Shown here: in pieces, positions 9,527-46,871 of the stretch | How positions within the stretch are numbered: position 1 is the stretch's first letter | Layout of the letters: each line of letters starts with the position of its first letter | Assembly (NCBI GenBank): GCA_018396705.1 | Contig: JAGTQZ010000004.1 | Span: 186,001 to 250,000 of the forward strand | DNA from: Candidatus Bathyarchaeota archaeon | GTDB lineage: Archaea > Thermoproteota > Bathyarchaeia > Bathyarchaeales > Bathycorpusculaceae | Direction of reading: 5' to 3' | DNA: 64,000 nt | Notes under the pieces: model-generated | The model's database searches: none | Told to the model about the DNA's origin: nothing | What the model saw: only the letters and a program-made list of their open reading frames with translations | Translations under genes and position numbers: made by a program

Positions 9527-10102
9527 TTACTCCTTTGTAGCTGCTTTTTTGCTTGGTCTAGCTTTTTCTGCACCTCGTCCTTTCTTCCGTAGGCCCCTAA
9601 CTTTTTTGCCTGCGCTTGTCAACCCTCTGAAGACGCGGCCCCTGTGCTGTTTTTGGCATATCCAGTTTACGTCTTTATCCGATTTTATAGCTGGATGACT
9701 GGGGTCAACCATTATAACTTCAAACCATTTGAAGCGTCCGTCTTCGCCAACCCAGTAAGAGTTTAAAACCTCAAGATTCGGAAACTTTCTTGCAGCTTGT
9801 TCCTCAGCTATAAGCCTCAAACTTTTAGCTGGCTTGTATTTTCTAACACCCATCCTTTTTGGTCTTCTTCCAGACCTTGGCCGCTGTTTGCGTAGCCCTC
9901 CTCGTCTCACGCGTACGCGGACTACAATAAAGCCTTGCTTAGCCTTGTATCCAAGCTTTCTGGCTCTATCTAAACGTGTGGGCTTTTCGATGCGAACCAC
10001 CGCAGGTTGTCTACGCCAATCTATGAGTCTCTGCCGCATCAACTCTTCAACAAAGGATTCTCCCGGCTTTTTCCAAGCTTCCGCAATATACTTATATGCC
10101 AA
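9527..10102 (-). CDS. rpl15e: Large-subunit ribosomal protein eL15
   Basis: The 191-residue basic protein begins [12 protein letters not shown] and carries [20 protein letters not shown] and [20 protein letters not shown], all characteristic of eL15. The start is TTG with a GAGGTG site 6 bases upstream. It heads the translation/RNA-processing operon eL15-eL13-COG1325-rnp3-rnp2. Length is normal for archaea. Confidence 0.95.
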
Positions 10103-10224
10103 TCTTTCACCTCGCCCCTAGTTTATGGTTCAACCAAACCGGTTACATCCCAGCGGATTTTTCATCCGCTCACGGGCTTCAAGATTCATCAACTACAAAA
10201 TAAAGTTTTCCAAAAAGCAAACGC

Positions 10225-38821: not shown

Positions 38822-39868
38822 GTGATTAGGGAGAAAAGGCAAACTCCTTTCTTTAAAAGGAAGCTTGAGCCAATAGAGGTTAAAACTCCTAAAAAAATTT
38901 CGGAGTTGCTTGCAGAAATGGCTAAAACAGGTTTTCAAGGCAGAAAACTTGGCGAAATTGTCGAAGTCTGGGAAGAAATGCTTAAAGATAATGTTGTAAT
39001 CTTTTTCGGGTTTGCAGGCTCCATGAGCACCACTGGTCAATGGAAGATTGTTAACTGGCTTATTGAACACCGCTTTATAGACGCAATTGTTTCCACGGGC
39101 GCAAATATTTCAGAAGACATTTTAGAGGCTATGGGGGGCACGTACTGGCAAGGCCACCACATGGTCGACGATGATCAGCTTTTAAAGTACAAGATTGACA
39201 GGTTTTATGATGTTTTTGCCGACGAGCTTGAATACCGTCAAATGGAGCGCCTCATTGCCAATTTCATGAAAAAATTGAATCCAAACTGTAAATATTCCTC
39301 AGCTGAGTTCCTTCACCTATTTGGAAAAGAACTTTCCCAAATGGGGATTAAAAGCATAGTTGCAACAGCCTACGAGAACAAAGTGCCAGTCTTCTGTCCT
39401 GCAATAGTTGACAGCGGCTACGGTATAGCCTATCTGCTTAACAGGAAAAGTGAAGGCAATTTCGACATAACCATAGATCAAATGCGGGATTTTGAACAAC
39501 TTGTGGATATAAAAGCCAAGGCGGCGCCTGAAAGCGGCGTGATATATATTGGCGGTGGTGTTCCAAAGGACTTTATCCAGCTTACAACTGTTGGCAGAAG
39601 CCTAACAGAATCCAGAAAATATGAAAGAGTCTACCCGCATAAGTACGCCATACAGATCACTACAGACGCACCGCATTGGGGCGGTTTGTCCGGATGTACT
39701 TTTGAAGAAGCCATCAGCTGGGGCAAAGAAGCCAAAGGAGGACGCAATGTGCAATGTTACTGTGACGCGACTATAGCTTTGCCAATAGTCGTTCATGCCT
39801 TGGCTGAGAAGGTTGAAAAAAGAGCGAAAGTTCCAGACCTCTCTTGGCTGTTTAAGGATTTAAAGTAA
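38822..39868 (+). CDS. Deoxyhypusine synthase-like protein
   Basis: The 348-residue protein is a DHS-fold NAD enzyme. GFAGSMSTTGQWKIVNWLIE and VSTGANISEDI near residue 90 bind NAD, GGGVPKDFIQ is near residue 245, and the active-site Lys is in EAISWGKEAKG near residue 300. The block GGLSGCTFEEA differs from the canonical GSLSGARPREA of the neighbouring gene. That places it in the DHS-like branch, some members of which make homospermidine or have unknown function. The start is GTG overlapping a GGCGG site. The canonical DHS follows 16 bases later, so an operon is likely. Confidence 0.82.
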   Translation: MIREKRQTPFFKRKLEPIEVKTPKKISELLAEMAKTGFQGRKLGEIVEVWEEMLKDNVVIFFGFAGSMSTTGQWKIVNWLIEHRFIDAIVSTGANISEDILEAMGGTYWQGHHMVDDDQLLKYKIDRFYDVFADELEYRQMERLIANFMKKLNPNCKYSSAEFLHLFGKELSQMGIKSIVATAYENKVPVFCPAIVDSGYGIAYLLNRKSEGNFDITIDQMRDFEQLVDIKAKAAPESGVIYIGGGVPKDFIQLTTVGRSLTESRKYERVYPHKYAIQITTDAPHWGGLSGCTFEEAISWGKEAKGGRNVQCYCDATIALPIVVHALAEKVEKRAKVPDLSWLFKDLK

Positions 39869-39884: not shown

Positions 39885-40814
39885 ATGGAAAAAGTAAAGG
39901 ACTTCGAACTTTCGAAGAGTGTATCCGCCGATACACTTGTGCGGCAGATGCTTGAAAGCGGAGGCTTTACAGCCAAAAACCTCGCCATCGCCGTTGACAT
40001 CGTTGAAAACATGCTGAAGGAAAAGAACATCCTTAACTTTCTTTCTTTCCCCGCGTGCATTGTTGCCACAGGCACTCGTGGCATAATTCGCGACATGGTT
40101 AAGCGTAAATGGTTTCATGTGGTAGTCACGACATGCGGCACTTTGGATCATGATTTGGCAAGATGTTACCGCGACTATTTTCAAGGCGACTTCTACATGA
40201 ACGACGGAGAACTTCACAGACGAGGCGTAAGCCGAATAGGCAACGTACTGGTGCCGAACGAAAGTTACGGCGAAATAATCGAAGAAAAAATGATGAAATT
40301 TTTGAATAGCATCTATGCTGAGGGCAGGCAGGATCTTGCTACCTACGAACTTTGTTGGGAAATCGGAAAACGCTTAAACGAAAACTCAATCTTGTACTGG
40401 TGCTGGAAAAACAATATACCCGTCATAGTGCCTGGTATAACCGACGGCGCAGTAGGCTATCAGCTTTGGCTCTTCAGCCAAGACCATAAGGACTTGAAAA
40501 TAAACGTGTTAAAAGACGAGCAGCTTCTAAACGACATGGTTTGGCAAGCCGAAAAATCCGGAGCCCTAATAATAGGCGGGGGTATATCAAAACATCACGT
40601 TCTGTGGTGGAACCTTTTCAAGAAAGGATTAGACTATGCAGTTTACATAACAACGGCCGTTGAATATGATGGAAGCCTCTCTGGGGCTCGTCCAAGAGAA
40701 GCTATATCATGGGGTAAAATACGTGAAAAAGCAAAAACTGTAACTGTAGAGGCAGACGCTACCATTGCTTTGCCGTTATTGTTTGCAGCACTTCTTGAAA
40801 GACTTTGCAGTTAA
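39885..40814 (+). CDS. dys: Deoxyhypusine synthase
   Basis: The 309-residue enzyme transfers the aminobutyl group of spermidine (or an equivalent amine) to a Lys of aIF5A. It shows CIVATGTRGIIRDMVKRK and VVTTCGTLDHDLARCY near residue 85, GDFYMNDGELHRRG near 103, and the catalytic block DGSLSGARPREAISWGKI near residue 265. These are the canonical DHS signatures, and the length is normal. It directly follows the DHS-like gene. No hydroxylase or aIF5A gene is in the window. Confidence 0.93.
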   Translation: MEKVKDFELSKSVSADTLVRQMLESGGFTAKNLAIAVDIVENMLKEKNILNFLSFPACIVATGTRGIIRDMVKRKWFHVVVTTCGTLDHDLARCYRDYFQGDFYMNDGELHRRGVSRIGNVLVPNESYGEIIEEKMMKFLNSIYAEGRQDLATYELCWEIGKRLNENSILYWCWKNNIPVIVPGITDGAVGYQLWLFSQDHKDLKINVLKDEQLLNDMVWQAEKSGALIIGGGISKHHVLWWNLFKKGLDYAVYITTAVEYDGSLSGARPREAISWGKIREKAKTVTVEADATIALPLLFAALLERLCS

Positions 40815-40904
40815 AAACATGCCAGTTTTGGATAGCAACGTTTAATTCCGCAAAAGCCTCAAATTACTTTGGCGATGACTCTTTCATACGAGCCTTCTGT
40901 GAAT

Positions 40905-41118
40905 CCCGCCGGGACAAATCCATGCCGACGGACCCAACCGAGCGGCAAGCAGTTCAAGTGCTTGTTGCTGTGAAGGCGGGTTTACCCAAGCATGGGACAC
41001 CGGCGGGCGCGGGCGCCCAAAAACTTCCCACGCCGGAGAGAGCTTAACTAAGGGGAGCGCATGGCTCCACAATGAAGTTAAGTGATAGGTAACGTGGGAG
41101 ACAAAAAGGGCGCCCGCG
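40905..41118. ncRNA. Strongly structured GC-rich intergenic element (possible RNA)
   Basis: Most of this 354-base gap (40815-41168) is GC-rich and self-complementary. Arm I: CCCGCCGG (40905-40912) pairs perfectly with CCGGCGGG (41000-41007), enclosing CCATG/CATGG and a GCAAGCA/TGCTTGT hairpin. Arm II: CGCGGGCGCCC (41008-41018) pairs perfectly with GGGCGCCCGCG (41108-41118), enclosing TCCCACG/CGTGGGA, CTTAACT/AGTTAAG and a GGAGC/GCTCC tip. The two closing helices abut and could stack. ACA triplets follow a pairing arm at 40997-40999 and end 5 bases after arm II (41121-41123), as in H/ACA guides, but I could not match a known class. I see no SRP or RNase P core motifs. Strand is undetermined. 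Confidence 0.6.
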
Positions 41119-41168
41119 AAACAACCTTTAAGTTTTGCTTTTGCATAAAATAGACGGCTTGACCAGTC

Positions 41169-42245
41169 TTGGACGTAGAAACCAAAATTGAACTAATCAA
41201 ACGTCCGCCGACAGAAGAGATTCTTGTCGAAAACGAGCTAAGGGAGCTTCTAGAAACCAACGAGCATCCTGGACACTATATAGGTTTTGAGATTTCCGGT
41301 TTGTTACATCTTGGAAATCTTGTCATGGCTGGTTTTAAGATAAACGATTTTCTAAAGGCTGGCGTCCGCTGTCAAGTTTATTTGGCAGACTGGCACAGCT
41401 TCATAAACAACAAGTTCGGCGGAGACTGGGATAAAATTCTTCAAGCCACAAAATATTATGCGAAAGCTTTCCAGTTCTTCTGTCCAGGTGTAAAGATTGT
41501 TGTTGGCTCGGAACTTTATCATAACAACGATGAGTATTGGCGGAACCTGCTAAAGTTTGCAAAACATATGACTCTAAGCCGCACCTTGCGTTGTCTCACA
41601 ATAATGGGGCGAAGCGAAACTGAGAAGCTTGACTTGTCGCAGTATTTTTACCCGCCTATGCAAGCCGTGGACATAAAAATCATAGGTGCTGACATTCCCC
41701 ACGGTGGTATGGACCAACGCAAAGCCCATGTGTTGGCACGTGAAATCTTTCCAAAAATGGGCTGGAAAAAACCAGTGGCGGTGCATCATCATCTGCTAAT
41801 GGGCTTAACGGAACCAGTTAAACTCTCAACAAAAGACAAGCTTGAGCAAGTTATTGCTAGCAAAATGAGCAAATCCAAACCATGGACGGCTATATTCATC
41901 CATGACACTGAGGAACAAATCCGAGCCAAACTAAAAAAGGCGTGGTGTCCGGAAAGACAGACGGAAATGAACCCTGTTTTAGAAATAGCCAAATACATTA
42001 TTTTCCATGAGACAAAAACCTTTACTGTAGAACGTCCATCCAAATTTGGTGGCACGATAACCTTTGAAAATTATGACGCGCTTGAAAAAGCCTATGAGGC
42101 TGGTCAACTTCATCCGCAAGACTTGAAAAACGCTGTAGCTACAGAACTAGCCCGCATACTGGAACCCGTAAGGCGATACTTTGAAACGGATAAGGAAGCC
42201 CGCGAAAGCCTAGAGGTTGTTAAAAAGGCAGAATTAACAAGGTAA
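41169..42245 (+). CDS. tyrS: Tyrosyl-tRNA synthetase
   Basis: The 358-residue class I synthetase has GHYIGFEISGLLHLGN (HIGH-type motif and the Tyr that contacts substrate) near residue 37. YPPMQAVDIKIIGADIPHGG holds the Asp that binds the tyrosine hydroxyl, and ASKMSKSKP near residue 235 is the KMSKS loop. The C-terminal helical region ending in LEPVRRYFE matches archaeal TyrRS. TrpRS is the main alternative, but the MQxxD block favours Tyr. The start is TTG. It lies 50 bases after the structured intergenic element. Confidence 0.88.
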   Translation: MDVETKIELIKRPPTEEILVENELRELLETNEHPGHYIGFEISGLLHLGNLVMAGFKINDFLKAGVRCQVYLADWHSFINNKFGGDWDKILQATKYYAKAFQFFCPGVKIVVGSELYHNNDEYWRNLLKFAKHMTLSRTLRCLTIMGRSETEKLDLSQYFYPPMQAVDIKIIGADIPHGGMDQRKAHVLAREIFPKMGWKKPVAVHHHLLMGLTEPVKLSTKDKLEQVIASKMSKSKPWTAIFIHDTEEQIRAKLKKAWCPERQTEMNPVLEIAKYIIFHETKTFTVERPSKFGGTITFENYDALEKAYEAGQLHPQDLKNAVATELARILEPVRRYFETDKEARESLEVVKKAELTR

Positions 42246-46765: not shown

Positions 46766-46871
46766 TGGCGGGTCCGCCGGGATTTGAACCCGGGATCTCC
46801 GGCTTAGAAGGCCGACGCGCTTTTTGGATTAAACGCATCGCGCCTGATAGTCCAAGCTGCGCCACGGACCC
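46766..46871 (-). tRNA. tRNA-Arg(UCU), intron-containing, CCA encoded
   Basis: On the minus strand, GGGTCCG pairs perfectly with CGGACCC, followed by discriminator G and an encoded CCA. The D stem is GCGC/GCGC after removing 27 extra bases. The anticodon arm TCGGC-CTTCTAA-GCCGG has anticodon TCT (Arg). The T arm is CCGGG-TTCAAAT-CCCGG. The mature length is 79 including CCA. An AT-rich promoter lies upstream near 46900-46930. The extra bases sit in the D arm, not at the common 37/38 site. Confidence 0.93.
46821..46847 (-). other. 27-base intron in the D arm of tRNA-Arg(UCU)
   Basis: Removing these bases restores a normal D loop and the GCGC/GCGC D stem. TTGGA just before the insertion can pair with TCCAA near its end, and a CGC-GAT-GCG hairpin lies inside. 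The exact splice points could shift by a few bases, and I could not draw a perfect bulge-helix-bulge by eye. Confidence 0.72.

Follow-up and report, generated by a model that had tools for sequence, protein, structure and literature searches.

The 64,000-nt stretch of archaeal DNA analysed here, referred to below as the window, contains a two-arm, RNA-like segment in the gap between a deoxyhypusine-synthase (dys)-like gene and tyrS (Table 1). Two dys-like genes lie in tandem on the forward strand (38822-39868 and 39885-40814); the two are distantly related (27-35% mutual identity), and one of them may have another role. The earlier note had claimed that perfect closing helices of 8 and 11 bp directly abut each other in this gap, each enclosing further nested helices, and all of these elements are present as described. 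The segment has a minimum free energy of -106 kcal/mol against -74.1 (sd 4.3) for shuffled sequences, which corresponds to a fold stability z of -7.44, none of the 200 shuffles being equally stable.

Table 1. Features of the RNA locus and its immediate surroundings, in window coordinates
Feature	Position	Strand	Remarks
dys-like gene	end 40814	+	upstream of the RNA gap
TATA-like element GTTTAATT	40840-40847	+	putative promoter of the RNA itself; conserved in most aligned homologues
5′ leader stem-loop	40871-40894	+	GGC-GATGA-N11-GA-GCC; resembles a C/D-type kink-turn/K-loop
Two-arm RNA segment	40905-41118		between the dys-like gene and tyrS
Arm 1	40905-41007	+	closing helix P1, 40905-40912 with 41000-41007
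H/ACA-type unit 1	40920-40999	+	
Unit 1 lower stem P2	40920-40925/40990-40995	+	covaries
Unit 1 pocket	40926-40932 and 40981-40989	+	CGACGGA and TTTACCCAA; near-invariant strands
Unit 1 upper stem	40933-40935/40978-40980	+	
Unit 1 ACA	40997-40999	+	
Arm 2	41008-41118	+	closing helix, 41008-41018 with 41108-41118
H/ACA-type unit 2	41027-41103	+	
Unit 2 lower stem P5	41027-41032/41093-41098	+	
Unit 2 pocket	41033-41041 and 41084-41092	+	CCGGAGAGA and GATAGGTAA
Unit 2 upper stem P6	41042-41048/41077-41083	+	
Unit 2 hairpin	41054-41058/41064-41068	+	with AG..UGA element
Unit 2 ACA	41101-41103	+	
TATA-like element CCTTTAAG	41125-41132	+	putatively for tyrS; downstream of the RNA
tyrS	41169-42245	+	358 aa; usual downstream neighbour

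BLASTN detected clear homologues of the RNA across the whole family of the window and in further families of its order; in their alignment both arms are conserved, with internal loops that do not vary and hairpin tips that do. Compensatory changes, the check that the earlier note had proposed, are abundant: in a set of 48 distinct homologues belonging to the order, both partners have changed at 32 of 43 pairs, compared to 13.3 (sd 2.1) in shuffles, and standard pairs fill 96.2% of the pair cells, in an alignment that was fitted to the structure and is accordingly biased in its favour. None of 500 shuffles reaches any of the observed covariation measures, and the signal is destroyed when the 3′ partners are slid. 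Within this set, each of the 7 pairs of P1 in the model has changed on both sides, and P3 in arm 1 covaries as does P2; in some relatives and lineages, a further hairpin follows directly inside P1. As judged from these alignments, the RNA structure is conserved. A protein-coding reading of the segment was rejected, the homologues showing indels of every length both in the conserved helices and between them. A covariance model built from 12 sequences (R1) finds the RNA in 201 of the 257 genomes of the window's class, including 110 of 120 high-quality genomes, nearly always as a single copy. A few genomes contain a second, more divergent copy (e.g., G125 C2:2854-3023 and G119 C1:1415667-1415816). 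Arm 2 is the most widely conserved part and is retained in distant members of the class, some of which apparently lack arm 1; when arm 2 was aligned by itself with MAFFT, the 3′ helix came out in the wrong place, and that alignment was left out of model building.

Each arm shows the layout of an archaeal H/ACA RNA, namely a hairpin that contains an internal pocket and has an ACA (ANA) box after it. The ACA triplets near the bases of the arms, which had been noticed in the earlier reading of this DNA, are indeed present and hardly vary (51 of 51 homologues for arm 1 and 58 of 60 for arm 2). Archaeal H/ACA RNAs are characterized by a distance of 14-16 nt between the top of the pocket and the ACA (PMC7991803). 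Measured from the outermost pair of the upper stem in the model, which can shift by one, the ACA is 15-17 nt away (mostly 16) in arm 1 and 14-18 nt away in arm 2; with this approximate count we take both arms to follow the archaeal spacing. The pocket strands are near-invariant in both arms (NGACGGA and UACCCA in arm 1, GAGAGA and GNUAG in arm 2). The strictly paired upper stem of arm 1 is short (3-5 bp), and above it stands a variable hairpin with a kink-turn-like GA..TGA motif. In archaeal H/ACA sRNAs, L7Ae is bound by a kink-turn or K-loop situated 5-6 nt above the pocket. Conserved GA..UGA and AG..UGA loops lie above the upper stems of arms 1 and 2, respectively, with a short or mismatched stem in arm 1 in the window's order; these elements could be kink-turns. 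Both ACA boxes are located in internal loops inside extra closing helices rather than in a free 3′ tail. These extra helices around each H/ACA-type unit are the long helices that had seemed unusual for an H/ACA guide.

With respect to the affinity of this RNA, a search of the window segment against all Rfam families, as suggested in the earlier note, yielded no relevant match at gathering score or at E up to 10, and the HgcG model (RF00064) did not match the window even at E 10; the connection to HgcG, an H/ACA sRNA of Thermococcales also known as Pab40, came instead from a class-wide model, R2, for which no sequences other than those of the window's class were used. Of 397 genomes sampled across the phylum, 174 yielded the RNA with R2, among them members of many other classes such as Methanomethylicia; in the phylum of Thermococcus, R2 matches 21 of 94 genomes. 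The best 12 R2 matches in the latter phylum, all in unselected genomes, coincide without exception with HgcG as identified by Rfam, 6 of the 12 being above the gathering score, with the best at 275.8 bits. R2 also picks the HgcG locus as its best match in the genomes of two loci from Thermococci (L174 and L178), which were fetched by a DNA pattern and are thus not independent. In the reverse test, the less clean of the two, the Rfam HgcG model matches R2-found loci at the position given by R2: there is a full-length match to L136 with 34.7 bits (E 4.7e-8 for 501 nt), one to L167 at E 2.4e-6, and weaker ones to L161 and L141. The scores of this model for relatives in other classes (26-35 bits) lie below the gathering score of 77, so that by that threshold they would not be assigned to HgcG, whereas an independent class model lands on the HgcG genes themselves. 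The H/ACA resemblance noted earlier is therefore supported by homology to a known H/ACA sRNA. We propose, with a probability of roughly 80%, that the segment is an independently transcribed H/ACA-type sRNA gene, the counterpart in Thermoproteota of HgcG (Pab40) of Pyrococcus. Sequence comparison gives good support to its placement by homology in a divergent, uncatalogued branch of HgcG H/ACA RNAs with a modified architecture.

The absence of SRP, RNase P and 5S signatures from the segment is borne out, as the genes for RNase P RNA, SRP RNA and 5S rRNA produce good matches elsewhere in the genome (C9:134131, C9:151396 and C4:30375, respectively). Two archaeal loci of the same phylum, L134 and L137, gave tmRNA-like matches of 28.8-30.1 bits, below the gathering score of 47.

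Hairpins 2 and 3 of HgcG align with arms 1 and 2, respectively, of the present RNA, positions 199-268 of HgcG being aligned to arm 2. Shared by the two RNAs are ACCC on the right side of hairpin 2, the motif AUGA..GUGUUA of hairpin 3, and an ACA following each stem. Hairpin 1 of HgcG is missing here, and in the window's order a short leader stem-loop takes its place, a 5′ GAUGA..GA element that HgcG does not possess. Furthermore, each unit of the present RNA is enclosed by a further helix that traps the ACA, the pockets differ (GACGG here vs GCGAGG in HgcG, and GAGAGA vs GGGUUA), and tyrS usually adjoins the RNA, unlike in HgcG. HgcE (Pab105, RF00060) is likewise a multi-hairpin H/ACA sRNA of Thermococcales, and its model weakly matches the HgcG hairpins, a resemblance that probably reflects shared H/ACA motifs; no Thermoproteota locus scanned with Rfam had HgcE among its matches. 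The same phylum also contains the crenarchaeal H/ACA-like sRNAs of Pyrobaculum and Sulfolobus, pseudouridine guides that include Sso1, the guide for tRNA-Tyr U35 (PMC4652768); in contrast to these, the present RNA consists of two large arms with closing helices.

As for function, Pab40 is an H/ACA guide with two motifs (PMC4652768) that directs modification of U2588 in the 23S rRNA of P. abyssi in vitro (PMC6138745), and an alternative fold has been proposed for position 2621 of 23S, which is 2586 in E. coli numbering (PMC2584109). Because of this literature, we take pseudouridine guiding to be the likeliest function, and the RNA probably helps to modify ribosomal RNA. Under the predicted mechanism, L7Ae would bind the kink-turn-like elements, Cbf5 with Nop10 and Gar1 would bind the lower stems and the ACA boxes, and the conserved pockets would pair with rRNA such that a uridine is positioned for conversion to pseudouridine; transcription, protein binding and guiding are all inferred here. 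A match to the Cbf5 gene is present in the same genome (439 bits). The frame of this match (L182, G000 C2:125159-126142) appears interrupted in this assembly, with two internal stops reported and an open piece of only 259 residues, possibly due to a frameshift, an assembly error or an unusual start.

An archaeal H/ACA guide pairs through both pocket strands with an rRNA or tRNA target that flanks U-N. When the pocket strands were compared with the 16S and 23S rRNAs of this genome, no target with the canonical two-base gap scored better than shuffled guides, and contiguous pairing with gaps of 2-8 likewise produced no convincing target against shuffled guides. A 16S site with an eight-base gap, obtained with the window's own arm 1 strands and reached by 1 of 200 shuffles, was rejected as the gap is non-canonical and the site vanishes with the class consensus. 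The sites GGUGAA-UA-CGUC in 16S and GGGUAA-GU-UCCGAC in 23S were noted and not accepted, and neither was CUGGGU-UUAGA-CCGUC in 23S, at the peptidyl transferase centre, which is suggestive and not significant. The 16S and 23S genes lie far apart on the contig, and the 23S gene (on G000 C2) contains a long insertion with an open reading frame (L113 2189-2743, reverse strand) that carries a LAGLIDADG-like motif, YIVGLVDGEGCF, and, from this motif, probably encodes an intronic homing endonuclease.

Conservation of the pocket nucleotides exceeds what a plain guide might require, and an HgcG homologue could instead act in ribosome assembly in the manner of the eukaryotic snR30/U17, a conserved H/ACA RNA whose pocket pairs non-canonically with rRNA (PMC7991803), with the invariant pockets pairing with rRNA and no guiding involved. 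The near-invariance of the strands NGACGGA, UACCCA and GAGAGA across the class and the failure of a canonical target to emerge are both consistent with such a role, as is the complementarity of arm 1 ACCCA(G) and GACGG to the flanks of a five-base gap at the peptidyl transferase centre of 23S (GCUGGGU-UUAGA-CCGUC). This complementarity, however, scores 30 against a shuffle mean of 27, which is not significant, and Pab40 does modify its substrate in vitro (PMC6138745), so that we consider a purely assembly-related function improbable. The likeness to snR30/U17 serves as a working analogy only. Extending it, we offer as a speculation, with a low chance of being correct, that HgcG and its relatives in Thermoproteota are an ancient archaeal analogue of snR30/U17 in which the invariant pockets, beyond any simple guiding of pseudouridylation, would attach to rRNA, possibly close to the peptidyl transferase centre, and aid ribosome assembly; the enclosing helices would hold the ACA boxes in a closed form.

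Returning to the proposed H/ACA-type sRNA gene, the region upstream of the arms contains elements that fit independent transcription. The TATA-like element GTTTAATT precedes the GGCGATGA element by about 27 nt, and its location places the probable start of the transcript near 40870, ahead of 40905. The leader stem-loop that follows was found in 36 of the 76 loci tested, mostly in the window's order, and probably marks the 5′ region of the transcript. Its third stem pair covaries (GC, GU, UA and AU) and is paired in 30 of the 36 loci, as against 20.8 in shuffles, with none of 1000 shuffles as high. A GCGATGA..GAGC leader also stands at the RNA's 5′ end in three loci of another class, Methanomethylicia (L139, L141 and L145); thus, although much of the window's class lacks the element, it may be an old feature.

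The proximity of tyrS raises the alternative that the RNA is a cis-acting leader within the tyrS mRNA, which would sense tyrosine or uncharged tRNA-Tyr. Indeed, the RNA is followed by tyrS on the same strand in 53 of 75 loci of the class, typically at 33-180 nt, and in 14 of 37 loci outside it, usually within 100 nt. Against a leader stands the second conserved TATA-like element between the RNA and tyrS: ACAACTTTTAAG is conserved in the family and adjoins tyrS even where an insertion separates it from the RNA (L002, L004 and L005). Moreover, tyrS is divergent in five loci (3 within the class and 2 outside it) and missing from the flank in many others (19 in the class), including the Thermococcus HgcG locus L178, with the structure kept, and the homology points to a stand-alone sRNA. 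The RNA thus does not hold an invariable position upstream of tyrS, and a separate promoter-like element precedes that gene. The linkage with tyrS is old and not obligatory; therefore, an independent RNA gene fits better than a leader, which we regard as very unlikely. Least probable of all is that the RNA belongs to a wholly unrelated new class, such as a ribozyme or a protein-binding scaffold, that resembles HgcG by chance: the window's failure to match Rfam directly, the unusually long closing helices and the strongly conserved internal loops would suit such a class, but the consistent coincidence of the inspected R2 matches with HgcG and the reciprocal HgcG matches to R2-found loci make it a highly implausible reading.

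HgcG/Pab40 is listed as a Thermococcales RNA; the present data extend its core, made up of hairpins 2 and 3, to the majority of a large class of Archaea and to many further classes of Thermoproteota, in which it escapes the Rfam model. An HgcG-type RNA with this distribution would rank among the most widely kept archaeal sRNAs, which makes it worthwhile to look for a shared and possibly important target. Furthermore, the closed position of the ACA provides a test of the actual requirements of Cbf5, and a covariance model could be used to annotate the RNA gene in several hundred genomes.

Elsewhere in the window, the reverse strand contains a match to the eL15-Euryarchaeota ribosomal protein leader (RF03144) at 10122-10169, with 39.4 bits and above the gathering score, directly upstream of the eL15 gene (9527-10102, reverse strand), in a genome that appears to belong to Thermoproteota and not to Euryarchaeota. 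A tRNA gene at 46777-46870, also on the reverse strand, is matched by Rfam and was missed by ARAGORN; its sequence points to tRNA-Arg, with a TCT anticodon, and to an intron-like insertion ahead of the anticodon arm.
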